Below, piece by piece: positions 19,801 to 60,339 of a stretch of DNA of 64,000 nucleotides (position 1 is its first letter; the number at the start of each line of letters is the position of its first letter). A program made the translations under genes and the position numbers. The DNA is from Bolinopsis microptera. Its lineage: Eukaryota; Ctenophora; Tentaculata; Lobata; Bolinopsidae. The notes under the pieces were generated by a model, which ran no database searches, was not told the origin of the DNA, and saw nothing but the letters and a program-made list of their open reading frames with translations. Location of the stretch: contig NC_087076.1 in assembly GCF_026151205.1 (NCBI RefSeq), forward strand, positions 13,439,675-13,503,674, in the 5' to 3' direction.

Positions 19801-22800
19801 TGAACTGTATGAAACAGGTGATATAATATAGGACATAAGACACGTGAAAGAGAGTATGAACTGGGACTGTGTTCCTACCAAAGTGCTCTATATTGGACAC
19901 CTGTTAAGTGTTAATGACCTAAGTTAACGCTTTAATGTAATCCTGATAGAGTTAGTTACTCGGCCGAAACACCTGCTGTAGTCTCGACTGCTGCAGAGAA
20001 TTTAGTATTAAATCTTACAGACTATCTTACTTATAATTCAAAGAATTATAATACAGCATGTATTAGCAAAGCGACTTTAGATTCTTTAATCTCTATAAGT
20101 TAGTTTCGACGCATATTAATATATTACGCCGCCTGCCATAAAGCAATTTATGCAGCAAATTCACGATCAGACGTATTTCTCTTACTGAAACGTTGCAGGC
20201 TTAGCGTTGCAGGGGATTCGGAGTAATTAGATACGAGAGGAAGTACTTATAGCATTTAAAGTATAACCAAGATTGGGTTTTTATTACGATTTCGGGTTTT
20301 ACATTTAAATACATCCCGTTTGGCGATTTTCTGGGATAGACCAGTCTTGACTGTAGGTTAAGATATTTAGTGGTAGTTATATAGTTGTCGTAGTTCTGAT
20401 TTTAAACGGATCCTTGGTGGTAAACAAGACTTCAGTCTCGTTATATATACGGAGTGCTTGTCAACCGTTTGATACAGCTGATAGTGGTACCCAACATTTA
20501 AAAATGGTTTTACCTTACACCCGGCCCCGATTTACTGCACTATTTTCCTCAAAGTGTGCTTTATGTCGTGACTAGACTGTATTAGACTGTATATCGTTAT
20601 CTGTAGCCTGTATTATCATACACATTGTTAGAATTTAAACTTAATGCATTTCATTATTTAAACTGTTTATAAGCAGTACTTAACAACTAAACTGCGATTG
20701 CTTTGCGTGACGTCACGACCACCCACACTGTAAAACCCTTCATAAAACATGACAGAAACAGTCTTGATGTGTAGGATTTCAAGATCTCAAGACAGCATAT
20801 AATTTAGTAAGTATTCATATCCGACTGTCATTTCCCGAAAATCACTAGATTAATAAGTCTTGGTATGCGCTATTCCATTACCTGGAGCTGAGTTTCAGAC
20901 AGCTAAAGCGAGTGTAAGAAATGTGTAGGAAAAGGAAGCGGCTGTAGCATTTCCGGTCTCCCCGGCCTGAATGATATCACGGACACAAACCCTCCTCTCA
21001 ATAATACAACATTGAAAACACCAAATTTAATCTAATTTCAGGACGGCCCCCCTAAAACACACCATCAGGATATAACCTGCATTTCCCCGTCCTACCATGA
21101 TGTGACTACAATTTGTCGGGCTGTGACCACGGAAGGAGCGTCGGGAGCAGGAACTAAGTGGTACTAATGACTCGGTAGAAGGGTGGAACTGTCACGGTGG
21201 TGTGAGCTGAACAAGGTGTCATACCACCGCGTATAGGGCTTTACAATTGACACCCCAACACTTATGATATTATATATATCAAGTGTGCGGGCTGTGCTGG
21301 TCCGGGTATTTGATAAACTCACCGCTAAATTATTTGATACAACACCCCCACCGCCCATTACGTCATGATCTCTGCCCTGTGGATGTGTCTAGTTCGTGTC
21401 TACTCTACTTCTCATCCTACCAAATATGTAGCTTCAAATACTGTTAACATGTCTGTTCATTTTTATTTCCGGGGTAATATTATGCAATCAGTTCCGGGAT
21501 CTTTCCGGAGTCTAGGCTTTCTTCCGTAATACTCCTAGGCTTTAGGCTTCCTCTACTTGGACAGTTACTGGTGTACAGATCTCCATGCGGGTAACCGTAA
21601 ATAACCATTAACCACTTATATATTAAACAACAGACGGTATAACCGCGTCTTCTTAGAATGTAATTTAGTAATCGTATTGAGAATAACAATAACGACGTCT
21701 ATTTTGGTCAACGGCTCGAGCAAAGATAGTACCCAGCGAGCCTGAGTAATTATAAATTGTGCAAGCGTATTAGTTTACTTCACTGTTAAACTGCTACATA
21801 GCTGTCATTCTTAGCATATCTCAGGATATTTTTAAAGGCGTCGTACACAATATTACAACTTAAGAATGACGAAGGACGTGAAAGGTTGGAACGATATAAT
21901 CTATCTAAAATGGGGATGATGACAGTTTAGGTCTAACAATATTATTTAAAAAACCGAGCCATAACCCCGGATCCCCACATAATATGTACAGTGAATCTGG
22001 AGGAAGAAGCCCCGCCATGGCAAGGGACACTTCAATTAAAGAAAACATAAAATATACCCCACAGTGTTCGGTATTCAAGTACACTTATTAGATTTCCACT
22101 AAATTTCAAGGTTATCAACTTAGCTTGCCTCATTTCTCGTAGTTATCGTGAAACCCTATCAGTCCCCAGCCATGCTGGTGCCGGGATATGTAACCTAGTA
22201 CACAGCGAGTATCTCCTGCTAGCTTGCTAGGTGAGATGTATTTTCACTATAACAGAGGGGGGAGCAGCTATATTTTACCGTGTTAACACAGTATACTAGC
22301 TGTGTCAAACTCTGCCATGCTAAATTCACATTGGGGTGCCATATGATTTGGTCATTCCTTGTATTGAAAGAATACAATTATTTCGCGCACTTTGACAGAA
22401 AGATTCATGGTCACTACTGCAGAGAAAGGGTTGTTGTTGTTGTTGGCCGTATCGGTGCTGGTGGTTATAATTACCAATTTTGTTTAACATCAGTACCTGT
22501 TTAAAAACCTGCAACCAGACAATATTATGAAGACAAATCCCCAAGAGGGCGCGGCACTTCACACCAAAATATACATATCATTATTATTATGGTTATTATG
22601 GTTATTAGATGTGATTCTCTACTGAAAAATATACCATTGTATCATTAATCCTGTGGTTAAAAAGAACCCCCCCCCCCCATTGTATAATTTATCCTGTGGT
22701 TAAAAAGAACCCCGCCCCCCCCCCCCCCCCCATTGTATAATTTATCCTGTGGTTAAAAAGAACCCCGCCCCCCCCCCATTGTATAATTTATCCTGTGGTT

Positions 22801-25800
22801 AAAAAGAACCCCTCCCCCCCCCCCCCCCCCCATTGTATAATTTATCCTGTGGTTAAAAAGAACCCCCCCCCATTGTATAATTTATCCTGTGGTTAAAAAG
22901 AACCCCGCCCCCCCCCCCCCTCTCACTCTCCCAGAGTTGCAGAGTAGTGCACTTACATAGCTTCTCCCGCTATGTGGCACCCTGTTCGTTACTAAAAACA
23001 GAGCACTAACTCCGTCACCATTGAGCAGTGTTAATAGTCTGTTCCCAATTACTGCAGCCCAATTACACCCTATTAACCAGGTCCAATGGAATGTTCAGGA
23101 TACTTGTGCCCTGTGAAACTGCTCCTCATGTAATCAGGATATAACAGCTGCAGCTGTAGTGCTGTGTATCACAGGTGAAGATATAATATGTAGACATTAG
23201 AATGTGGCAGTAGCTCATTTTAACACTTCGTCACAAAGAATCTGACCTGCTAGAAAAGTAAAAGACTCCCTGGTGACAGGATAGAAAAGTAAATGATTCC
23301 CTGGTGACAGGTCTGACAATGCGGTGATGATGTTGTGATGAAATGAGGGGAGATAAACTAAGATAACACACAGATTTGCTACATAGCCCTGCCAAAATTG
23401 AGCAACCATTTGCTGAGCTGCAGTGAGCTTTAAACTTGGGTAGCGCAGGCTGAGCATACCTTTAAAACTTGTTGTTTTCAGCATTTATCTAGCGAAAAAC
23501 CCCCGCACTTCACTTGTCTCGTGCTCTACTATCTATCTGGTCCTCTGTTAAACTTGACCTTTCTATGTTTTATTGAACTTGTACCCTGTTTAAAGTAGTA
23601 AGGGGTCTGACAACCTACATTCCATGGTGTTGTTATAACACCACCAGCTCACCAACTGGTGTTAAACTTGTTTTAACTGCTGTTCTTCTACTCACAAAAC
23701 CGAAATGGTTCAGTTCCGACCAACTGGCCTGACACCCTGTCAACATTACTGTGTATCCTACTCACTGATATACTCAACACCGTCCTGACTCCTGTACCCT
23801 ATTACAAATGATTATCACTCGGCAGATAAGGCAGAACATCACCTTGTAATCTAGGGCGTATTTAGGATATAATGGGAAATTTCTTTATATTCTTCATTAT
23901 ATCAACTGGATTAGAAAACTGAAATGAGTGTTAAGTTTGATCAAACACAAACGCAATAATAATCGAGTTCAGATATTGACTAATAACATTGAGAACACTA
24001 AATTAACCACCTCACAACAACGTGATATAATTATTAATAAGTAATAACCTCTAATATAATAAACTACTCAACTGCCCTTTAAACGATTAGTTGGTGGATA
24101 ACCGTCCCAGCCACGTCCTGAAGCGTGGAACTATCCCTGAACTCGTATATTTTACATTAATATTTAGATTGTGGTTGCTCAATCGTTTGTTCATGTGTGG
24201 GTGTAATGACGTTGTTATGGTGACGAACAACGCCTGAAGATTGTAATGTTGTTATTGAGTAGGCACAGCATGTCGTGATCTAGTTAACACTGTAGTGCTA
24301 AAGCACTTTTGGTTAATCATTTTCGCATTATCAGAGATTAATTTTGTTGCTAGATAGTGATATGATTGAAAATTGTTATTGAGTAGCTACAAAGCGCACT
24401 TATCACACTAGAGAACTTTTAGTTACTCATATTAATTTTATAATACTGTAAAATCATTAATTTCCGCGGCGTGAAAATGCGTGAAAATGTGTGCCGCGAA
24501 ATTGATTGCTCCTAAGTCATGTCTACATCGTATCATTTGAATCCGCAAAAATTAGTGTCTGAAAAAATATCTGGTTTTACAGTACAGCATCTCTGTCGCA
24601 AGATAACAGGATGTGTTACCTCTCATTTAACGTTAATGAATATTAAATAACCATTGGATTAATTGGTCACGTGATAAATGTGAATTACAAAGAATTCCTT
24701 TGTAGTACTATAATAGCACCAGGAAATGCACCTGCAGGGTATCATAGGTAGACAAAGATAAGCAGACAACTGTTCTGTACTTAGTGTAAACTTATTGTAA
24801 ACTGGAGGTTGAGAAAACTAGAAAAGTGTAAGAACTGATGTGGCATGTGGGTCGTTGTGACTTGTGATATAAAACCATTATTAGACTGCAACTTCCTTAT
24901 TCTTGTTGTGAAGAGTTTTCACAGTGGTCTACATAATCACTTAATGGCTGGCTTAAAGTTAGAATATCCAGGTCAGTCACTATGTTCTTGTAATTGTGGG
25001 CGAACAGTTACAAAAATGGGCGTGAGAAACTTGTTTTAATATACCCTTTTATGCTCAGAATTCGAAACAAATATTTACCCCGATGATAAGATTACTTTAC
25101 TCTGGCAGAATAGCAAATTATTATTCTATCATTTACCAAAGGAGTTTTTAATCACTGCATGTCCTATTCTGCCCATTTCAGACGTTATGTAAATTAGAAT
25201 GTTGTATGAGTTCCGCCCACAAGAGACGGACGTCGGGCACTCGATCTTTTTAAAACTTGTACATAATTGACAGGCTAGAAGGCCAGAAAACTAAACTACT
25301 TTCCATTTTTTTAAACTGATGTTGGAGTTTTATAATTACAGACAAATTTTTATCGACCGAAAATATAGAAAGTTGAGTGAAAGCGGTGGATATATTTCAA
25401 TATTCTAAGTGTCGAATATCTTTTGAGAATTACGCCCTTTTTCACTCATGCCATAGAAAATAATAGTTTGATCGAGCTAAATACCTGTATTGATACATTG
25501 TAAGATAATTTACCATTAAGAAAGGTTTCCCTAACGACATGATTTTGATTTAGGTACCATGCACAGTGATTAGTTCTTGCTAAGTTCCTAATCAGTTCCT
25601 GTTAAATTCCTACGTCAAATATATCATGATCAATCATCATGCACAGTTTTAATGATACACGTTCCCGTATCTTTATAAAGTGCTACACTATGCGACGTGT
25701 TTCTACACAAAAGAGGACTTTGAGGATGCCGAAATTACCGGTATACGGCTCTTTATCCTCTGGAATTTCATCTCACGACATTTTCTATGAGGTGCTAGGA

Positions 25801-30250: not shown

Positions 30251-33200
30251 TACTGGGCTTCATAACTCGCAATATTTCGTTGCGTTTCGAATGCAGTAAC
30301 GCTGTCAGTATAGGACTTAACCGTTTTAACTCTACCGTATCTTGACTCCCCTCTGCGGAAAATAAATTGTGTCCAGTTAATGCTTGGATATTACAAACCT
30401 AGCAACTATAATGCAACTATAACTTCTTTATAGCAAGGTTATTGCCCAGATATGATCAGCCTTAATTTGGACAATGTAGGGTCAGTTTTGTTCGTAACAC
30501 ATAATTTGTTCAGTGAACCTTACCATCAAAATCTATCTTAAGCATATTTTTACAGGAGGCATTGATCGAACAATACTTACTAGTGTCTTTTTGAGTGAGG
30601 AGATGCTGTAAAATTGAGAAAACCTCGCCACTTTTAAGATGAAATGGTCCATAAAGAAGCTGAAAAGAAAATGTTAAACTTATAAAAAGTAGTAGTAGTA
30701 CATAGTTGACAAAATGATCATAAAACATGAGGATTTTAAAATTTGCATAAGCTTCTATCCGTCAAGGGAATCAGATACAAATCTAAGCAAAAAATATCTC
30801 ACCACTGCGAAAGCAGTTGCCAGACAATGAACGGTAGCAACCAAGGGCGGAGACAGCGTATCAAAAGCGTTTGCAAGCCTCTCCAAGTACTTTGGAGTTG
30901 TTTCACCCTCGTTTCTGACTCTGATATCGCACTTTCTCAACAGAGCCTCCATCTCGAACACGCTGAGGACCGGTTTGGAGAGAGAGTTAAACCAGGCTTT
31001 CAGAAGGCTCCCTAGCTGGAACGGTGCCAAGTCACTCGTCTGAAAGAATGTTTTTAACCTTCATGTACTAAATAGTTTGACTCAATATTTTAACTTGTGT
31101 ACTCAATTTCACCAACATTTTGAAACCATCATATAAAATCACTGAACAAAACTTAGACTCTAAATAAAAGAGTACTTACTGACTCCCAGACGCCCACGTT
31201 TATCTGAGATATGACCAGATCTATATCGTACTTCGCACCACTGCCTTCTCCATCCTGTAACTCTTTACCAGATACCCCCGCTAGAAACTGCTTGATTGCA
31301 GTGTCAGCATCTTCTGAGATGTTGTGTAGATCTAGGATGCTGGCCGAGTCTCCCTTAAAATATATCCATTATCAAATGCAAATGTCATGATCATTGATAT
31401 CATGATATAATGCCTTACAAACAGTTAAAAGACACAGAAAGATGTGCTAACATTATCTATACTAAAGGTACTAAGAGCTAAAAAGATCGTCCGAGATATA
31501 ACCATCACTAATAAAAATACTGGATTCATTGACTTCATCCATGGTACTAATGATGCAAATCTCAAGTGATAGTTGATATGAATATGTCAGGTTACATCTG
31601 ACAGACCTCCTGAAGTAGGTCATTCTCCGGTGCCTCCACAGAGTCAGACGACACAACAGTGTCAGAAGAATTGGCCTGGTCCTGGTTGATGTGGGTCTGT
31701 GTCCGGGAAGACCTGGGACTCAGGTTCAGACGATGTGATATCTTGTTGATCCTGATATCCTGAGGTTGGATAATTGTTGCTTCACTGACAATACACTGGC
31801 AACATCACAGTCATAGTATTACAAAATGTATTCCCCCATATATGTTAGAACACAAGTCACATGAATATAACACAATTAACAAATTGTAGTAACTAACGTA
31901 GGGATGAGAAGGAGAAGGGAGGTCGGGTACGTTCTCCACACTCCTGGATCTCCTGAAGACCCCTGTAGTTGACATCAGTCTCTCAAGTTCCTCCACTTCT
32001 TTCTCTGTACACTCGGCTCCGTTCAGCGAGTCTAGGTCATCTTCATCTAGATCATACTGCTGCAAACAAAACTAAAATAACGTACAGTTATAGTCTAGTT
32101 GATCGGACATTCTCAGTTTAAAACTTAATTGACTCACCCTAGAAGTCTAATCCGTGTTTTTTTGTTGCCTATTTTAATCCAAAAACTCGGCCAGTACGAT
32201 GGATTTCCACGTGCATATAATCAGATCAAAAAAACCCAAAAGAAGATAACCTGGTAACTTGAAGGACACGTGACTGGTCTTGAAACTTCGTTATTAGCTC
32301 TGATCCTCTTGTGGAGAACACTGGTGGGCTGTCCTACTTTCTCCATCACCCAGCAACATACCATGTAAACAACCTGCAGACACAAATGTCTTAATCTTTG
32401 GAAGTTTTTGTACAAATTTTAAAGATGATATCGAAATTCTGCAGTAAAATGCATAGACGTAAATATATGTATGTCATGGTTATCATTACCGGAATGAACA
32501 ATAGTTGTCAGTATATTGTTATTTTGTTTTTAGTGTTACCTTTGGGGTGTACTTGAGTGTCTTCCCCTCGGTGCCGTGAAGAACTATTTTCTGATTTGCT
32601 ATAATCTCTTCAAGGTTGTAGCTTGGTAACAACGGCGCACTAATAATAAGCCGAAATGACATTGTTTTTTATTATACTGTTATAGTTTAAATATTTTAGA
32701 AACCTCCATGATCAAGAAAAATATTAAATCAAGAATGATCATTTAAAAAAACTTACTGTGAAGGGAATTGTATCCATAGTGGAGAAAGAAAGTTAGCGAA
32801 ACGAAATACAGCTTTCAGTTGTCCTCTCGTCTGGATGGACCGTGGCCTGTTCTTTCTCACCAGCAGAATTGCCTGAAATGTCGAAATGAGGTTAAATATT
32901 GGTCCCGTAATCTAATAAATAACTAATTAATACTCCATTACTCAAGAGAGAGCAAAATTTCTTCTGACCACTTGAAATGTAACTTCAGGTTGAGTTAAAT
33001 TAACGTTCTACAGAATAATAGGATTACGGATATATCTTTCCTTCAGCAGTTTTAGTTTGTCGTCATGCGACTTTATTATTGGAAACAAACTAATTGGGTG
33101 ACTAAATTGGTGCACTTGTCACTTTCTGGGGATTGGGAAATATCGTCTGAGTTCTGAACCGAGAAAAATTGAAGCTCTGCTGCAGTCTACGGGAATATTT

Positions 33201-36200
33201 AGAAATGAAAGTTATTCTGCGCGCAACAGATCGTGTTGTCAAAATGCTACACAAAATGCTGAAAGTCAAGTTTTTATATAAAACAGTTTACGCGCGTTAC
33301 AATATTGTTTCTTCACGATAGTGACAGTTCCTTACCATTTTACTCTTATATACTTGATAGCTCAGACAACAAGAGCGGAGACAATGTTCAGTGTTTACTG
33401 AATGGAAACCATGGCAACAAAAAAATGAGGAAATTCCAAATAGTTCACGATGTCATTCTACGAAGCATTCTATCGTAAAACGTATATATTTTAAGGAGAA
33501 ATACATATTAGCTAACAGCTAATTGTTTTTACAAGTGACCTATAACCGCCAATTAACGTGCAAATGACAAAACTAGCATGCTCGAACTTTTAACTTTAAG
33601 CAGAGGAAAATTTTGTGGGTCGAGACCTGGACATTTTGGGACTGAGATCTGAAAATTGTATTGTGACATGTTAATCTCTACTATAATTCAAAGAATTGTT
33701 TCTGTCTGTATGTCTGTACGACCGCCGACGTGCAAATTAGACGAGAAATAGGAATTTAGGTAACAACCAAAAGGTTCCATAGCAACGGTGTTTTAATGCA
33801 CACATGCACGTGCAAAGATTGTTTTAACGTCATTTTGATCGGTTTTGTGGTAATAACGTTGTGTTCAGTGCGAGCTACATTTTAATCGGCTGTATCTTCG
33901 GTGGGGATGAATACTTTTTGAAACGATTTGAACTTACTTCGAAAGAATACTATTAGGTTCCTCCCTGTTACCACGGGCTTTCTAGTAGCTTTATAATATT
34001 AACAATTGGTAGAATAATTCTTCTGGAAGCCAGCATGATAGGTGTGACTTATCCACCGATGCGTAAACCCATCCTCCGATGTATAACCAATCCTCCAGTT
34101 AGGATCGGAACAGGTACTTCAGTAGCAGGGAGGAGTTGAGTGTGCACTTCGATGTATAGAGTTTTTTGCTACTGGATATGGTAAAATAGGTCATTGGTTA
34201 CTCAAATCACCGAGGGCCGCATGTTGTGTGGAGCCACGCCCATATTTCATATCAGGCACGTATATGGGATATTTTTATCTCAGCTTCTGAAGGATTCTTT
34301 GTATGGTCATTCTGCATCAGAATTGATAAGGTATGCAAATCCTAGGGGGGATTTCTACCATAATTGATAATTAAGTACATGTTTGATGTTACTATTTGTT
34401 ACATTTTGTTTTCTGACAACTTAAAAGCTCAAAAATCTATCATGCCCCACACAAAACGGGCAAAGAATATAGTAAATTGGAGTTTTACTGTACGTGGTTT
34501 CGAGAAAAACGAAATCGTCAGGAACCTGTTCAGAGCGTAATAGCGTAATAACGTCATGGTCGATATTGCGAAATCCTTATTAGAGGCCATTCTATTTCTA
34601 CTGCATGGGGTTTACTATTAAGTTTCTATAAAGGAGGTGGTTGGCAGAACCACCTGTATTTAATTGTTATTGTTAGAGTAGTATTCTACCAGCTACCTTT
34701 TCACAAACTTTATAACGTCATTTTATTTAAATATCACTATGATTTTAGCTAATCTACAAACACTTACCTGAGGACCTCAGGCTGAGATTCGGCGGAATGG
34801 CAGGCTGAGAGTAGCCCAGTAAACAAGCACCTGCTCAAATTTCCTTTTGAATTCGATCACTAAATCGGTTCAATGATTTCTCTCCTAACAGCAGAATAGG
34901 CATTAGTGCCATAATATATTTGATTTTGTTGCCTATGGTCTTTGTAGCAAATTATTTGCAGCTGACAAACCTGGTAATGAACACACCTGACTTAGATTTG
35001 TAATCGTTGACAATAAAAAGCGTAGCTTTCTTTGCCAATTATACTTAGTGTGGTAAGCCAGTTTCTGTGCAATTCGAAATTGCATCGATTAATATTTATT
35101 TTTTGTTTTTTTATTTAAGGGTCGTTCACATATTTCTTAATCAGCGGAAGGGGGAAGGGGTATAGTTCCTAAGTTTAGTTCTTTTGGCGGCCAAATTCTG
35201 AAAAATGCCCGCCAAATTTCAGAATTCGGCCGCCAAATTTGAAGGCCTAACTCAAAATTCCACTCCAAAACTTAAGGTCATCAGACAATACGTTGATTCT
35301 GAAAATTTCATGAAAAAATATTGAGGGGGGGGGGGGGGGTGGGGTAGGTCTTGATTACGTTTGATTACGGAGGGGGGAGGGGGATAAAAATTGCTATTAA
35401 ATATTGATTAGTGATTCTCTCTGAGTAATTTTTCTAGCCCATCACTCAGTCTTTTTAACAACACAATTTGGAATAACTTCGATACAGTTGAGCGTAGAGT
35501 TATCCCTCTGTTATTGTTGCAATATGTGATATTGGGATGATGGTGATTATTCCTTTTCTCCAATCATTAGGAATATCCTCACTTTTCCATACCGTTTCAA
35601 AAAGATCCTTTAACCAAGGCAGAAGTCCAGGAGAACCTTACTTTAATAGTTCTTCAACTTCTTGATAGCTTCCTCAATTTCAAACAAGGACTGTGGTTCA
35701 TCATCATTACTAAGGTATTCAAAAGAGAGTACCTTTTCATCCTGATCCAATATAAAGAAATCCACCGCATTTGCTGCTGGTGTCAACTATATATCGCTAT
35801 TAAAAATAGTAATTCTGGCAAGGGATCATACAGATACCATGTGCATTGTGCTAATAGACTCTGGGGTATTTAAACACAAAAAGGGTTCAAATTTCATTAA
35901 ATCGATAGAGATCGCATTTGTGTCGTTTGTTCGGTAAGGTATTTAGTGACTTTGTCTTTGATAATTGAAAATTTGTTCACTCGCCGTGACCTCACCCACA
36001 TTATCTATGCTAGTATGAGATAAAGTAGGCACTCCATCCTGTACAGTACCGTTGGTACCCTGATTTTGAACGGGAACCGGTCACTGTGGCGGAAGTCACT
36101 GCGGCGGTGTTTTAAAGCTAATCGATTTTGTTATTATATTAGCAGTGCTAGGTCTATCTTATAGGTTTAGTTTCTAGTGCCGCCGTACTGTCCAAAGTAA

Positions 36201-39200
36201 AGTGGGTGTCATGTGATCCGCCGTACCGTCCAACCTTTTTGGAAAGTACCGCTGTACCGGCCTCCGCTGTACCGTCCTCCGCCGGACTGTACACCGCCGC
36301 AGTGACTTCCGCCACAGAGTCCTATACCCTGTACTAACCTCTAAGCTCACGGTCACTAGTAGTTACTACTATTTGTTATGAACCTTCCTTGAATAAAGGT
36401 CTGTGTTCTTGCATTTTTATTTTTTAACCTGCATGTTGATAAAGGTAAATGTTTATAATATGTTGTATGTGGTCCAGCATTAAGCATTAACCACTTGGTC
36501 AGGACTGCCTCTCTAACGACACACCAAAATAACAACCTAGATTATGAGCCTTCAAATAGTTAACAGTTGTCTGGCCACATCTGTTTTATCTTTATATATT
36601 TTATAACTTCTAATGTGCTAATCTCACGATCGTTCTCAAGACCCATTATGCACCATTCTGTAGATATAGGTTTTTATTTTGTACGAGGTCCAGTATTATA
36701 AGTACTGATCTTAGTGGTCCAGTGCAGGTATTGACATTAGCCAGGGCAGGGCTGATGACACACAGAGAGAACAACTTAAATCAAGCATGCAGACTAATAG
36801 CAGTCGAGCCACGTACTGGATTACTTTTCGTGTTAAATTTAGGGGGGGGGGGGGGGGGTTTGACATGTCCGCCAATGTCTGCCTATGTACTGTCCTTTTT
36901 GGATTTTATGAGACATTTTTTTGGACATTAGCGGACATTGACGGACATTGGCAGACTCGGACGGACATTGGCGGACATTAACTGACAAACATTATGAAAA
37001 TGTTTACAAACATCATAATCATCCTTTGGAACTATCCTAACGACCACTACCAGGGCAAATTACTTCGCCCTGATAATATTAACGCAAGGAAAGGACTATT
37101 TTTACCACAAAAGACAAGATAATGCCCGGCACGTGGACTATGCCATTTAACCGTCACGTGCACAGGGGCTCTTACTGAGATTCCTAGCATCAGTTAATTC
37201 ATTTTATTTCGCTATCACATTTTGTTGGCCGGCAGAGGCAATAAATTTATAACCCCTTTAACCTGACGATTCTCCTCCAGGAATGGATTGTCCTCCAGGA
37301 ATAGTAGAGATGATAACAAACTCTTCAACAGATGACTCGTTCATCCCGCACGCTACGGGTGAGCGCTACGTTCTTCTAGCGTGGACGTGCGCGTGCGCCA
37401 TCATCTCCATCCCCGGTAACATAACAGTACTAGCAGCAGTGTTAGTGTACAACGCTATAAGGTTAGACCGGGTCTCAGTCATACTGATCTGTAACCTAGC
37501 TGTGTGGGATCTGATCTACACCACTATTGGCATCCTGCCCACTATACCGGCCCTGGCTACGGAGAAGTGGGTGTTTGGAACAGGACTCTGCTGCTTCCAA
37601 TACTGGGTAATTTGGCTGGCTCTGTTGGGAGATGTTACACTTGTCTGCTCCCTTAACATTAGTAAGCTGACTAGTCTGTTGTTCCCGCTGGACGCTAGAC
37701 TGCGCGCACGCAGGACCGGCAGGTACATAGCACTGTGTCTGTGGTTGGGAATCCTGCTGTTCTCCGTTCCTGTAGCAATGAACGCTGTGAGGGGGGAGAT
37801 GAAGATGAACTCTGGTTCCTACAGATGCGACTCTTCCAGCTCTCGCTCTGCTAGTGTGTGGTGGGTTCCTGTGTACTCTGTCCTCTTCATCATTATCCCC
37901 ATCCTGCTGATCATTGTGACTACAGTCTGGCTGCTGTGGTATGTGAACAAGGAGAGGGGACTACAGAGACAGAGCATTCTTACTCTCATCCTTATCTCCG
38001 GGGTATTCGTACTATCTTACATTTCTGTTGCTGCTATGTTGATATGCTACATATTTGTTGATCCTGGTGATCCTGAGAACGCCAACTTCTACGATCAATT
38101 CTTCAAGGTTTCCATGTTTATCAACTATGTAAACTTCACATTGAACCCCTTGGTGTATTACAGATCTATCTCTAGTTTTAATAGGTTCGTTAAGACTAAA
38201 GTGTTAAGAGTAAGATTACAGATTACACCACAGTTGGGTATTACTACTAACTTTAGGATGAAAAACTCTGTTAGGGTGACAGGACCTCAACGGCCTATTC
38301 CAGTGTTTTATAGAAATTCAGGTTAATTAACAATTATATTATAACAAGTGAGGATTACTGAACTTATAACTTGATATTTCTGTAGCATTTATTGTGGTGT
38401 AATGAATGTCTGTCAGTCAAGACTGAAACTGATTTTAATAATTTGAACCAAATTCGCTTGAATGATTGATTATAGGGGGGGTTACATGTCTGCCAATGTC
38501 CGCCAATGTCCTGTCCTTTTTGGATTCTATGAGACAAACGGACGTGTTTATGGGACATTAGCGGACATTGGCGGACATTAACAGACAAACATTATGAGAA
38601 TTTTTCGCACAAGATTTGGACACAATATTTTCCGCTCATAATGATCATGACAGCTTGAAACATGAACAAAAGTCCTTTCCAGAAAAACGTTGAAAAAATT
38701 TTCGGTCCGAGTCATCCTTGATGACTCGCACTGCAAAGGGGAGGCCTGCATTCCGGGATCGCATTACAAGAGGGAACCCTCGAGTCCAAAAATCGTATAT
38801 CAAAGGGTAGGTCCGGACGGGAGGCCGACAAAGGGGGGCCCCCGATTATTAGGGGTCAGATCATATGACGTATAATTAGTGATGTGACGAATAATTAGTG
38901 ATGTGATCCATCAGTAGAATTTAATTGACCCAGAAATTAGCTAGATATAGGGTAGAGTTCACATGTCAATTCTGTAAATAATATCTGTATATTAAGAAGT
39001 AAACATGATCTGACTGCTCGACTCGTAGATCACATAAGGGACGGGAGCTTTTGCTAAAGGGGGTTCTTGTATCAAGGGATGTGAGACGTACGTGCCAAAG
39101 GCATGCAAGGGGAGTGAGCCGATCAAGTGTTCTTAGGTATATTACTGGAAGATGAAAGACAATAGTATCGGTCGGACAGGATCTCAACAGCTACTTGACT

Positions 39201-42200
39201 CTGATGGATACATCTACTGTCGGAAGAAGAGCAAGGATTCAGCCCTCGCATCTTCCTGGCGGTGCTGCAAGCACAAACTTTCTACGAAGTGTCCGTGCTA
39301 TCTATCCCTCTCAGACGATTTCTCATGTCCTTGGCCAGAGTGAATGCTTTTATGAAGAATTTGCCAGGATGGGATGTGAGCAATTGCTACTTTCACCTCT
39401 GTCAAGCTGTTCTTGTTCGCTAAGAGTCGAAGGAATTGCCATACCCAACTCCACGATATCTGTTCATTTTACTCCACATACTCTAGCAAGATCGAGTATT
39501 TGTTTTCTGTAGCCTCAGTGTTTGGGCACGATATATTGTAGTAAATTATAAATCAAAAGTACGGAGTTAAACTGGGCTAGATATAGGGTAGAGTTCACAT
39601 GTTCTGTAAATCATAGCTGGTGGATCACATCACTAATTATACGTCACATCACTAATTATACGTCATATGATCTGACCCCTAATAATCGGGGGCCCCCCTT
39701 TGTCGTGCAGCAAAAATATTTTCGGCTAATAATGATCAGGGTAGCATGAATCTTTGATTAGATTTTGACTTAGAAAATTTTCGGTCCGAGTCATTCTCGA
39801 TACGTACCTCTGAAGGCAAGTGCTCCCGCTTCCGAGCTCGCACTGCAAAGGGGAGGCCTTCCGGGATCGCATTACTCGAGTCCACAATCGTATATCGTAG
39901 GCCCAATTTACTACATTTGTTTCTTGGTTACTATTTTGGTTGGTACTGAGCTGTCACAATGTTCCTTTACAAGGTTGAAGGTACTACACTTTTTAAACGT
40001 TCAGCAGTCAGGAAATTAAGAAATTGAACAATTAACGCTGCATTACATTTCTAGTATAAAATCAAACTGATGTGGAGAGGATAATATATCAACCGATATA
40101 AATAACATTGATAGTTTTCATGCCTTGCAGTTGAATGGAAGAAATCTCAGGCCTTAGCCTTAGGTATTTTAGTAAACGATTTTCTAGCCTTATAACTGTC
40201 AGTGTAGAGTAAAGTGTTTAAATTTACTGATCACGTCTCTAGAGAAGGATTTTTGAGGATTTATTATATTGTTTATATGTTTTCTTTCTCTATCTTTGTT
40301 TTTATGTTGTTGTATTAATTTGTGTCAACCCACCAAAATTGAAGGTCTTAGACTACACAGTATTAGACTAAACAATTACAACTCGGTTACCAAGGAATCC
40401 ACAGAGTAGGCAACTTCTCACAACAAAGAGAGGTGATTTGTAGGAAAATGTCAAAGCAGAATACAAACTTACATCTTTAGGTTTCATCTTGTGATGATAG
40501 ACAAGAAAGCAAGCTATCACCACACCAGTTCGTCCCAGTCCAGCATGGCAATGTATAGCCACACAACCTTCACTCTGTGCAAAGGTCACTACTTTACAGA
40601 TATCCAGTAGGAATCGTTGTAGGGGTACTGAGTAGTCCTGAAAAATGTACATTAGAAGTGTCATGGTATGTCACTTATTCAAGTTTTAACTAGAGTACAG
40701 ATTCAAATCAAATCAGAGTCGCAAAAAGAAATTTGCCAAATGTAAAGTTCACAACTACATATTACTAGTCATTCATCGACCTGCAATCTTGCTAACCTGG
40801 ATATTGAAGTTATAATAGTAAATTTCGTTATCCATAAACTCTATGGGATCGTAACTGAAGCCTGAACTGTGAAGCGAATTTCCACAGCTGGCATGTTCAC
40901 CTGTTTCTTGAAGATTTATAATAGCAGTGATGCCTGATCTGAAAAGTGAATTTAGCATTTAGGTTTCTGAGCAAACAAGCATACAGTGACTCATTTTAAA
41001 GACCAACTAATTCAATCCTGGACCAAAATAGAATCGGACCAGCTAGATGCAATACATACTTTTTAAAAGAGTCTATCATACTGTGTTTCTTCATCTCGGT
41101 GTAGTTTGGTCTTGCCATTGCAAGAATATTATCCGTCACCCTAGTAGATAGAGCATTAAATACCTAAGAATCGATATAATTATTATTTGAGAATAAAAGA
41201 GAAAATCGTGTTGTATTTCCAAGATAGCATGCATTCCCTCATAACATGCATTCCTACATACCAGTGAGAAAACAAGCCAGGGATAGCCATCTGCTCGGCA
41301 CTCCACACATCTGACCTCTCATACTTGCACGACTTTCCACCACAGAAAACCTAGGGAAAAAGTCTTTTTTGTGAAATGGCAAGTACCAGTGAAAGCAATG
41401 AAACACCAAGGGTATAAGGGAAGGGATATCAAACAAGGCTCCACTAGCCTAAGACACATAAACAGGAAACATATCTCCTGAAACAGTTATATTGTAGTAA
41501 TTGAAAGTATTAAAACTATGTTAATGGAAATACAAACATTCACAATCTCCCCTTTCTTTCTCTTTAATAAAAACTTAAATAGATAAAAATGCTCGTGCTC
41601 GAATGAGACCAATTCATCTGATAAATTGTAATTATGATAAAAATAATAAATATATACCTTTATTCAACTCTTTAAAAACTCTTAAAAAAACGTTCGAATA
41701 CGAACTAATACATCACACATAAAATTCATATAATTCAATTGTTTTTGTAACCAACAAATAAGCGTTCTAAATTCCATTGAACAATAAAGCTGATACAGCT
41801 TTGGGAAGTTTCCCATCCTCAATAGTCCCACGTAGTAGCCCCGATGAAGCCCCTGCCTTAGTAAGGCAGTCTGCCAGTTGCAATCCTGTCGGAACCCAAA
41901 CAAATTTGACCTCATCTCGGTTAAATCGTTGCCTCAGACATGCCATTGGAATCCGCAAGCCCTTATCTTCCAGAGAGTTGGTTGTTCTAATCGCATCATA
42001 CAGTGACTTACAGTCTGTTAGACCGATGATAGGGAACAAGCCCTTTCCCCTGAAGATCTGGTCGAGTTGGGTTGATATTAGCTCTGCTGCATCTAGAGCA
42101 TCAACTAGAGCCCAACTCTCTGCACCGAGTGTACTCTTGCAAACTTTACGTATCTTTCGGCTCTGCCAGGTAAGAGGGCAGCATTTTCCACTCTTTTCAG

Positions 42201-45200
42201 CCATGAATATTTTGTGTCCACCCTGAGAAGATCCATCAGAAAGATTTCCAAATGAGGCATCACTGAAGACTATGATAAATGCCCCATTAAACTGGATTTT
42301 CGGGAATTTCAGTGATAACGGGTTTCGCTTCATAAACCGTATTGTTTTATTTACCAACTTCAGATCACGCACAGTTCCAGAGGAGTACGAGTTTGCGGCA
42401 ATACAAGTTCCATAGCTTATGTCAGGCCTCGTTTGAGTAGCAACCCACAGCAGTTGTCCAGCAGCTGACCTGAGCTGTCTCTTTTCAACCTCGTTTATTG
42501 GCACATCGTTTAGTTTTACTCTAGCTGAATCGATTTTGATCTCAGATATTTGTTCAATGTATCCAAACTGAGAAACATTGATGAGCATGAAACTCTGCTT
42601 GATATCTAGACCAGTGTACACAAAAGAACCTTCAACTTCAGTGCTCAACTTAAACTTGCTCTTCAATGAACCCATGACATGGCTTAAGAACCACTCATTC
42701 CCTCCAAACATGAGGTCATCCACATGAATGGCTATCAGACCAGCCAGCTCTTCCCCCTGGTGTCCAAAGAAAAACGATTCATCATAACTAGAGATTGTCA
42801 TTCCCAGATCCTCTAGAGTACGTCTCAGAGTAATATACCATTTTCGAGGCCCATCAATCAGTCCGTAGATGCATTTTTTCAGCTTCCAAAGCATTACTGT
42901 TGATGCTTCCTTTGGTGGCTTTATAAACAATGTTCTTGTTAACTGTTCCCCTTGTAAGAAAGCAGCTTGTACATCTATGTGTTGAATGAGCCACTTCAGT
43001 CCTTGGCACAACATTGTAACGATACGAATAGTATCCTTACTACATGTCGGTGAGTCAGCCCTCAAACCTTTATCCCTCTCTTGGTAGCCCAGAGCAACCA
43101 ACCTTGCTTTTGGTTCTCCTGTTGTTTTTCGGGTAACTACCCATCTTACACCAATTGTAGACTGACCATCATTTCCCACTTCATCATAGACCTCATTGCG
43201 CTTGAATTTCTCGAGTTCTGCAATCTTTGCATCAACTATATCTTGCTCAAACATCTCTCCATTGGTGAACATGACTTCATGCTCTTGTTCTTGCTCTTGT
43301 TCTGGATCAGCATGCCACTCAGAAGCAAGTTCAGACCAGTCCACACATTGGGTAGTGCTTTCCCCATCGAGCTGAATGTTCAGACACTTAGCATATTTTC
43401 CAGAGGCTTTTCCTGCTCTACTGTGAATATAAACCTTCTCCCATGTTTCTTCTTCTCCGTCTTCAGGGTATTTTGCTCGAAAGAGAACATGTGTCTTCAC
43501 TTTGGGGAGCTCTATCTTTTCTACAGACTCTTGTTGTCTACTTGCCGCAGGTACAATGACTTGAGTTGCCAACTCGCGGGTGTCAGCAGTTACTACCGTG
43601 CTTGTTGTAGGAATTCTCAACTCTTTCTTTCTAGAAGCTCTCTGCTCAAGTGAAACTTCTTCAGAATAGTATCTTGGAGTCTGATCTTCATCAACCATCC
43701 TTTTTTCTGTGCCATCATTACTTTCGGGTGAAACAAATTGATGCTTCTCTTGGGTCGTCTTCTTAGAGATATGGCATGGGTGCACTTTCACTATTTGGAA
43801 GCCATGTTTGACAACAAAAGTTTGACCATCACGTCCTATCACAACACCAGGTCCACTCCATCTGTCAGAATTGTTTCTCTTATAGAGAACCTTTTCACCC
43901 ATCTCCAGCACAGTGTCTTGACAGGTACGGACCTGTGACCGCAAGGCACGTTTGATTTTAGCACTATTCTCTGCTTTTATGAACTCCTCACGTGCAGTCC
44001 TCATTGCTCTCAGATTGTCTTCCAGATGTGTACTGGCAACTTTCTCCTCCAAGGCAGGAAGATGATTATCTACCACATTTGGCAATGGCGGGTTCTTTCC
44101 CAAGACAAGCTGGTACGGGGAATATCCTCCTGACATCTGAAGTGAGTTCTTTGCACTGACAGCCCAAGCTAGTGACACCTCCCATGTGCATCGTACATCT
44201 TCTTTTGTCTTCACCATCATCTCGGCTATTATTCTATGGTGCCTTTCCACCATCCCATTACTGAATGGGCTTTCTGCTGCAGATTGCTGTAGTTCCACAT
44301 TAAACTGCTCACACATCTCCACATATTCTGCATTGGAGAATTCACCACCATTGTCTGCCATGAAACGCCTCGGACTTCCAAACAATGCAATCCAGCTTGT
44401 GCACACTGCATCAACAACAGTTTCCTTCTTTTTGTTCGGGATTATCTTAGCAACCGAAAATCTAGTCGCACAATCTATCATGTGGATGAATGTTGGCTGT
44501 CCTTGCACAGTTTTCAAGTCCATTGCCACACAATCATTGAAAACAGTTCCCCTTGGCAGCCCGACAACCGGTCTTGGTTTTGGCTTAGCATATCTTTGGC
44601 ACACTTCGCAGTTACTGCATACTATCTCTAGAGCCTTCATAAACTCTTTCTTAGTGAAGCCTGCATTCCTCAACATACTCTGCAGCTTGTATGCTGGAGC
44701 ATGAGCAAACTGCCTATGCAGTTTCAAGGCTTTCTTTTTCATTTCTTTTTCATCTGTGCCACCCATAGTATCTTCAGTAACTGTCAATACCAACTGCACA
44801 CTTGAGTCGCTGAGACATCTCCTTCTGTTGCACAGGGGTACACAGTAATGTCCTGACTTACACTCAAGCAATTTGACCTGTTCTCCGTTGAACATCATTG
44901 TGTCTTTGGTGAAGTCAATTACTGCTCCTGCCTTCTTCAAAGAGGGTTTGCTCAATAGTAGGGGTAAGTCACAACTCACAACATTTGCATCGATGAGTAT
45001 TTTCTGCGTCCCTATCCTCCCTGGGATCTTTATCTTTTCAACTGAGGTCACCTTCTTACCATCTCCGAACTTGAAAGGGGTTGCACATTCAGTTGGAGTC
45101 ATCATCCGTCTTTCTTCTTCTCCCAATGTTTCTGCATACTGTTCAACCCAGTTTCTTCCAACCACAGTCTTTGTGCAGCCAGAATCAATGACTGCACACG

Positions 45201-58522: not shown

Positions 58523-60339
58523 CCCAGAAACCCTGACCGGATGGGGCTTAACTTTGAAAGTAAAAGAGTTAGAGACTTCCGGTTTTTGGTAACATGTTCC
58601 TCTTTTAAAAGTAACGTTACCTCTCCAGGAGGAAAATTCAAGACAACGTAATTGTTGAGTTATCTCAAAATCTCCAGAAAAGTCCCCTTTCAGGCCGATC
58701 AAAAGTTTGCAACTTTAACTTTGCGGATTCCTGTACTCTGGTTGGCTGAATTGTGTCACGTGGTAGCTGCCTGAACATTGGAATACGCCACGCGTGCAAA
58801 TCATGCTTGTTGTTGCGCGCGAGGTCAAGCCGTCTGTTTAAATTAAACCAACTCTAGTACCACCACCAGCCGGTAACTTTTCCTGGGTGCGAAGTAACCA
58901 ATTAAGGCTATTGAATGCCGAACACAAGGATATTTCGTATTCGGATCATATGCCTGCAGGCTGTCTGTCGCTTAAGACCATGGTCGCTCTTAACTGAGCG
59001 ATAAGTGACGTTAAGTGAGACCGTGAGCACCACTTCTTGCCAAATTTGCTTTTGAATTACGGCCCCCCCCCCTCCCCTCCCCCCCCCATCATGAAGTAAA
59101 ACAGTACAAGTTGTGGTTTAACGACAAAATACAGCGAATTCTAGCCCTTGAAAGTTGTAGGTTTGGAAGATCAATACGGCTGCTTTAATTCTTAAAATTC
59201 TTAAGTTAGAACGGCCAAAACACCCTACTCGGCGTCAGTCAACTGCACCCAGAAACCCTGACCGGATGGGGCTTAACTTTGAAAGTAAAAGAGTTAGAGA
59301 CTTCCGGTTTTTGGTAACATGTTCCTCTTTTAAAAGTAACGTTACCTCTCCAGGAGGAAAATTCAAGACAACGTAATTGTTGAGTTATCTCAAAATCTCC
59401 AGAAAAGTCCCCTTTCAGGCCGATCAAAAGTTTGCAACTTTAACTTTGCGGATTCCTGTACTCTGGTTGGCTGAATTGTGTCACGTGGTAGCTGCCTGAA
59501 CATTGGAATACGCCACGCGTGCAAATCATGCTTGTTGTTGCGCGCGAGGTCAAGCCGTCTGTTTAAATTAAACCAACTCTAGTACCACCACCAGCCGGTA
59601 ACTTTTCCTGGGTGCGAAGTAACCAATTAAGGCTATTGAATGCCGAACACAAGGATATTTCGTATTCGGATCATATGCCTGCAGGCTGTCTGTCGCTTAA
59701 GACCATGGTCGCTCTTAACTGAGCGATAAGTGACGTTAAGTGAGACCGTGAGCACCACTTCTTGCCAAATTTGCTTTTGAATTACGCCCCCCCCCCCCCT
59801 CCCCTCCCCCCCCCATCATGAAGTAAAACAGTACAAGTTGTGGTTTAACGACAAAATACAGCGAATTCTAGCCCTTGAAAGTTGTAGGTTTGGAAGATCA
59901 ATACGGCTGCTTTAATTCTTAAAATTCTTAAGTTAGAACGGCCAAAACACCCTACTCGGCGTCAGTCAACTGCACCCAGAAACCCTGACCGGATGGGGCT
60001 TAACTTTGAAAGTAAAAGAGTTAGAGACTTCCGGTTTTTGGTAACATGTTCCTCTTTTAAAAGTAACGTTACCTCTCCAGGAGGAAAATTCAAGACAACG
60101 TAATTGTTGAGTTATCTCAAAATCTCCAGAAAAGTCCCCTTTCAGGCCGATCAAAAGTTTGCAACTTTAACTTTGCGGATTCCTGTACTCTGGTTGGCTG
60201 AATTGTGTCACGTGGTAGCTGCCTGAACATTGGAATACGCCACGCGTGCAAATCATGCTTGTTGTTGCGCGCGAGGTCAAGCCGTCTGTTTAAATTAAAC
60301 CAACTCTAGTACCACCACCAGCCGGTAACTTTTCCTGGG
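58523..60339. repeat. Tandem array, unit about 726 bp, 2.5 copies
   Basis: Units at 58523-59247, 59248-59974 and 59975-60339 (partial), beginning CCCAGAAACCCTGACCGGAT. Copies look identical except for C-run lengths in a poly-C stretch (about 59061 and 59788). The same 62-codon minus frame recurs in each unit, but it has no recognisable domain and I do not call a gene. The near-identity implies a recent duplication or ongoing homogenisation. Confidence 0.95.

Follow-up and report, generated by a model that had tools for sequence, protein, structure and literature searches.

The locus described here raises the question of how an uninterrupted receptor gene came to lie antisense within an intron of a phosphatase gene of the ctenophore Bolinopsis microptera, with a similar repeat on either side of it, and of whether its lack of a DRY motif belongs to this gene or to its family. 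The window, meaning the whole stretch of 64,000 nucleotides analysed (C5:13439675-13503674), was compared with the rest of the genome (264.65 Mb, 232 contigs) and its features are given in Table 1. The explanation considered probable for the locus as a whole is that the receptor is a recent and intact copy of a GPCR gene on C7, made by a DNA-based route, with left ends of a common transposon (F) inserted or captured nearby, the nonDRY and intronless states being traits of the family.

Table 1. Features of the receptor locus, with positions numbered from the first nucleotide of the window.
Feature	Position	Strand	Basis or remark
Class A GPCR ORF, single exon, one ATG-to-stop frame of 347 codons (347 aa), TM3 NISKL (K at 3.50)	37283..38326	+	ORF list and Pfam
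Host intron holding the receptor and repeats	32873..40472	-	7600 bp, GT-AG, phase 0
Host phosphatase catalytic exon with HCHAGLGRTG	40473..40637	-	Pfam profiles
Duplicated segment in common with C7:4243780-4245043	37253..38474	+	BLAST, ends refined by eye
Copy A of the repeat: left end of a truncated F element, with G-run, anchor and (GGACATTRGC)n	36842..37003	+	
Repeat E fragment, truncated on both sides, ending in ATAAATTTATAA	37003..37252	+	C13-enriched; >1 kb in other copies
Repeat copy B, second F left end and body, with nested inverted-terminus element	38475..39904	+	Right terminus not found
Element with inverted ends nested in B	38826..39705	.	GGGGGCCCCC-type ends
AATTTA directly before copy A, perhaps a target duplication for the whole block	36836..36841	.	
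AATTTA right of B body end, possible target duplication of whole block	39905..39910	.	

The receptor was first annotated as having one exon, which its single open frame bears out. Its product matches the Pfam family 7tm_1 (E-value 6.3e-22) with 78.7 bits against a curated cut-off of 30.5, across the full model (1-260 of 260), and this places it in class A. A single-sequence AlphaFold2 model (mean pLDDT 45.6) is too poor to judge the seven-helix fold. The best sequence matches in the PDB are LPA5, PAR4, HCAR2, and GPR174, and like these the receptor possesses the 7tm_1 profile, D2.50, the two extracellular cysteines (C3.25 and C45.50), P5.50, N7.49, and Y7.53 (residues are numbered by motif columns, with 5.58 taken as P5.50 plus 8). 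It differs from them in having K3.50 without D/E3.49 and T in the 5.58 column, and in lacking both W6.48 and P6.50.

The host gene is one that we take to be PTPDC1-like. Its catalytic exon (..VAIHCHAGLGRTGVVIACFLVYHHKMKPKD) matches the Tc-R-P profile above cut-off (4.5e-10) and the DSPc profile below it (1.1e-06, 29.0 bits, cut-off 33.5), and it ends at 40473 with the donor GTAAGT. Coding resumes at 32872, in the next exon (AILLVRKNRPRSIQTRGQL..), after the acceptor TTTCAG and in phase 0. The receptor lies wholly within this 7.6-kb intron on the opposite strand, as the initial annotation stated, and is by prediction a nested intronic gene, with its coding frame inside one host intron whose splice sites and phase match. 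In the ctenophore Hormiphora californensis 2357 genes are nested in introns; transposable elements flank 1109 of these on one or both sides, and 176 of them on both, according to the available parts of its genome report (PMC8527503). A receptor nested beside transposons is therefore of a kind already known in ctenophores, but in contrast to the Hormiphora genes as those parts describe them (PMC8527503), a likely parent copy and breakpoints are identified for the receptor. Upstream of the phosphatase exon there are also domains of a Copia-type retrotransposon at approximately 42544-44532 on the minus strand (RVT_2, 8.4e-29; rve, 3.6e-08), apparently within another intron of the host gene.

The closest other match to the receptor in the genome is found at C7:4243807-4244853 with 94% amino acid identity, while the next has 49% and the others no more than 39%. 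In DNA, BLAST aligns the window with the C7 locus in two pieces, 37256-38438 (96%) and 38434-38471 (95%), and the flanks are unrelated. The copied segment measures approximately 1.2 kb: to the complete ORF it adds some 30 bp of upstream DNA and some 148 bp beyond the stop codon, and the 3′ part of the C7 segment has 38 bp extra relative to the window copy. Judged by its 96% DNA identity, the receptor is a recent dispersed duplicate of the C7 gene. The receptor segment aside, the 4-kb C7 locus has only weak matches in the genome, which makes C7 the likely parent, and the direction from C7 to C5 is favoured because the C7 flanks are near single-copy; the copied segment in the window ends in repetitive DNA at both sides. 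With the relative at 49% (L003) as outgroup, 17 of the 20 amino acid changes are unresolved and the other three match the window copy and not C7. When the 7.4 kb to either side of the C7 gene were scanned in six frames against Pfam, there was no support for the parent being nested too, with a PapD-like match just below cut-off and repeat-type Fibrinogen_BP matches being all that was detected. An F left end lies some 6.2 kb downstream of the C7 gene.

Comparison of the two coding frames identifies 20 nonsynonymous and 15 synonymous changes (dN/dS 0.41), no stop codon and a single in-frame indel of 6 bp. The nonsynonymous changes are fewer in the 7TM core (8 of 20) than the synonymous ones (12 of 15; Fisher p 0.037). 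The low dN/dS and this avoidance of the core suggest that both copies are kept, although a pairwise comparison cannot prove constraint on the daughter alone. As the copied segment carries almost no upstream DNA, expression would need a new promoter or a trans-spliced transcript. A candidate for the former is the TATA-like ATAAATTTATAA with which repeat E ends next to the start of the copied segment, 31-42 bp before the ATG. Trans-spliced leaders are reported as widespread in Hormiphora in the available parts of its genome report (PMC8527503).

Copies A and B have the same orientation and are 87-93% alike across their aligned blocks. They had been placed about 0.3 kb before and 0.15 kb after the receptor, which agrees with their starts at 36842 and 38475 (A approximately 0.28 kb before the ORF and B approximately 0.15 kb after it). 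When the window was searched with the repeat seed (at most 3 mismatches), six matches were found, at the places of A and B only, the shuffle mean being 0.03. The repeat had also been tied to the receptor family, with the proviso that many copies genome-wide with no link to that family would speak against the tie. A first repeat survey gave 958 candidates, 40 of which were scored, and the exact 21-base F anchor has 806 matches in the genome (reversed control 0). For the 19 nearest relatives of the receptor, no copy of the repeat lies closer than 1.5 kb. The repeat is thus rejected as a hallmark of the receptor family.

Among 100 listed anchor places there are 42 same-strand neighbouring pairs within 6 kb and no opposite-strand pairs. 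Twelve of the same-strand pairs were fetched (L097-L108) and 11 of these proved to be single elements with terminal inverted repeats (TIR) filled with tandem repeats, the twelfth (L101) being two left ends, and so the notion that such pairs are terminal direct repeats of gene-carrying elements was discarded. The left end of F has a G-run and TGTCAYGTCC, and the right end has GACGTGACAC and a C-run. The 6-bp flanks are identical in 10 of the 11 two-ended elements, and in the remaining one they differ at a single base (in L105 this assigns one G of the run to the target). Tandem repeats make up 79-94% of the interior of these elements vs 6% of the DNA between the window copies, and 20 F loci together with a further F copy (L158, left anchor confirmed) gave no match when compared with 60 GPCRs for receptor cargo. 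Elsewhere in the window C-run arrays are present at 22667-22920 and 59063-59814, and at 59787 the unit from around 59063 appears again, its flank nearly identical.

No F right terminus was found in the window, where the terminal motif is present at the two left ends only. Given that A and B are both left ends, the bracket is not formed by the two ends of one standard element, for which inverted left and right termini would be expected. In the subfamily of B many F copies lack the right terminus, which was seen by eye in three of eight loci within the stretches fetched (L110, L112, L114), and L110 and L112 have equal 6-bp flanks. The body of B is interrupted by a nested element with many copies elsewhere in the genome, which contains a small ORF (39152-39343), presumably FLYWCH-like (unscored). 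Repeat E has nine loci beyond the window (L021, L022, L046-L052), seven of them on C13, a contig with approximately 6% of the genome. Most of the other E copies continue past the point where the window copy ends, and in L049 another element is inserted at the same TTATAA point at which the window E stops. E was also considered as a known RNA gene, which is rejected with no Rfam match in the window and five of the nine E loci.

The copy is real and its likely parent has been found; its route was probably DNA-based. In the favoured reading, the segment of about 1.2 kb with the whole ORF, which stands antisense in the repeat-rich intron of the PTPDC1-like gene, would have been copied from C7 as the putative parent by repair, template switching or a transposon end, and not via mRNA. 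Its 5′ side is joined to the fragment of repeat E and its 3′ end lies at the left terminus of an F transposon, the C7 homology on the right running up to the G-run at 38475 where B starts. The direct repeats are two left ends of the common F element, which would have entered beside the copy by insertion or capture, and are not machinery of the receptor family. The initial annotation had suggested transposon-mediated or recombination-mediated capture, and of this the dispersed duplicate between repeats stands, while the idea that A and B are opposite ends of a single standard element does not.

It is quite possible, if short of our preference, that the original copy was longer, that A, E, and B were inserted later with deletions trimming the copy, and that the bracket is a coincidence in a repeat-rich intron. 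The surrounding DNA consists largely of repeats, and the left flank of B (ATTATA) corresponds to ATTTTA at C7, so that B could simply have inserted into the copied segment. Right-truncated F copies like those at this locus are common, as noted, and L115 is an F-free counterpart of the second left end of L111. Beyond the copied segment, however, F repeats are the only C7 sequence that DNA comparison detected in the 64-kb window, and later insertion would need deletions on both sides.

It is unlikely that the whole block was transposed as one unit, i.e., an F element with A as its left end and CCC (39902-39904) as its last bases, carrying E, the GPCR, and the second F left end; the accompanying proposal, that the cargo was gained by template switching and the whole block inserted with duplication of the 6 bp AATTTA, is held in the same low regard. 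F generates 6-bp duplications, and AATTTA is found on both outer sides of the A-B unit, directly before the G-run of A and directly after the CCC ending the B body, with a chance of approximately 1.6% (20-bp search, from the 6-mer frequency in the intron, 6 in 7600 bp). The copied GPCR segment moreover stops exactly at the G-run of B, and the block is a patchwork of A, E, GPCR, and B in order. It is these matching outer flanks that leave room for arrival on an aberrant element. The left flank of B, ATTATA, was not found at the right end of the B body (region of 39905). Against transposition as one unit are the missing right terminus, the interiors of the 11 two-ended elements, which are tandem repeats without a GPCR, and the occurrence elsewhere of close double left ends without a receptor (L101, L111). 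In addition, inspection by eye found no matching 6-mer at two F copies that end in body and C-run (L109, L023), and AATTTA occurs three times between 38606 and 40472. Pack-TIR and transduplicating DNA transposons carry host gene segments between transposon ends as a mosaic of fragments. The block in the window resembles these in having a gene segment between transposon ends and a mosaic structure, but differs from them in having two left ends and no right terminus.

Retroposition, in which a LINE-type mechanism would have reverse-transcribed the C7 mRNA into the intron before F copies arrived, is improbable and was rejected as the main reading: the copied segment is gene-sized, comes from another chromosome and begins some 30 bp upstream of the ATG, where an mRNA might start, but the parent frame on C7 (only the frame being examined) is itself open throughout so that no intron was lost, inspection by eye shows neither poly(A) at the 3′ end of the copied segment nor a target duplication around it, and the shared 5′ stretch has a pyrimidine-rich, acceptor-like tract (CTCCTCCAG) which would be absent from spliced mRNA if the site were used.

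The single exon had itself been read as a hint of retroposition, and the question had been raised of whether the closest relatives bear introns or are flanked by the same repeat. Neither is the case for the C7 gene as regards its frame, or for the 19 nearest relatives as regards F within 1.5 kb. The family list has 117 scored matches including the window receptor (counts made by hand), in 105 of which residues 45-290 are covered by one match, and 106 have no internal stop. Ionotropic glutamate receptor frames, with 32 matches in the genome, are also in some cases uninterrupted, at up to 989 amino acids (917-970 in L053-L056), and the PDB matches of one of these receptors include, though not as the best, ML032222a of Mnemiopsis. 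With uninterrupted relatives and such long frames, intronlessness is no sign of retroposition here, and the intronless state is, going by the open frames, a trait of the receptor family. The nested copy is one recent example, with its breakpoints mapped, of single-exon receptor genes reaching introns.

The missing DRY motif is more interesting than the nesting, and the family with lysine in place of arginine merits a second look. Of all the activation residues in class A receptors, R3.50 is taken to be the best conserved. TM3 of the receptor reads NISKL, in accordance with the initial annotation, where two of the PDB matches have NVDRY and SLDRY. This was noted as a peculiarity of the gene, and while true of the receptor it is shared by its family. 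In an alignment of the window protein with 59 relatives, those fetched among the 116 other matches (three of them, L011, L060, and L062, with an internal stop each), K is at 3.50 in 60 of 60, 3.49 is S, C, T, N, A, F, L, or G and never D/E, and 3.51 is L in 56. A further sample of 20 from the other 57 relatives has K in 19 and R in one (L136). K3.50 is thus present in 79 of 80 sampled members and D/E3.49 in none, counts which describe the receptor family and not all receptors of the genome, as the relatives were picked by similarity to a K3.50 receptor.

The receptor falls outside the canonical E/DRY subset (D/E3.49 with R3.50) with its SKL, and of the canonical switch residues W6.48 and Y5.58 it has Y and T instead. 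Among the 60 aligned members T5.58 is found in 49 and P6.50 in 57 (S in the window copy), W6.48 is not among the common residues, and conservation is high at N7.49 and Y7.53 (60/60 each), C45.50 (58/60), C3.25 (56/59), and D2.50 (54/55). The receptor would work as a 7TM receptor whose TM3 switch may rest on the invariant K3.50 with T at 5.58, replacing arginine. More tentatively, a large and mostly single-exon class A family might have rebuilt its activation switch, with K3.50 and T5.58 for the R3.50-Y5.58 pair, Y7.53 and N7.49 kept and a lysine-centred G-protein contact, and might still be spreading as short dispersed intron copies with flanks supplied by transposons. No report of a K3.50 receptor family was found in the literature searched, which leaves out most subscription journals. 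The available parts of a study of choanoflagellates report rhodopsin-type GPCRs that have lost E/DRY (PMC12716839) and do not mention a ctenophore K3.50 family. These resemble the receptor family in being of the rhodopsin type without E/DRY in an early-branching lineage, but the receptor family, unlike the choanoflagellate case as given in those parts (PMC12716839), has Arg replaced by Lys across a large family.

The K3.50 family beside R3.50 receptors in the same genome provides a natural experiment on the need for the arginine in signalling. As a control, 20 higher-scoring class A receptors by Pfam profile (147 scored) outside the family list (L137-L156) were inspected, of which 17 have R3.50 and three have K (L139, L148, L153). 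L153 scores like a family member with 78.5 bits, and L146 aligns weakly with 5.8 bits. Most of these receptors combine R3.50 with Y, H, or another residue at 3.49 (YRL, HRY), two having DR (DRF, DRW) and one having DKL.
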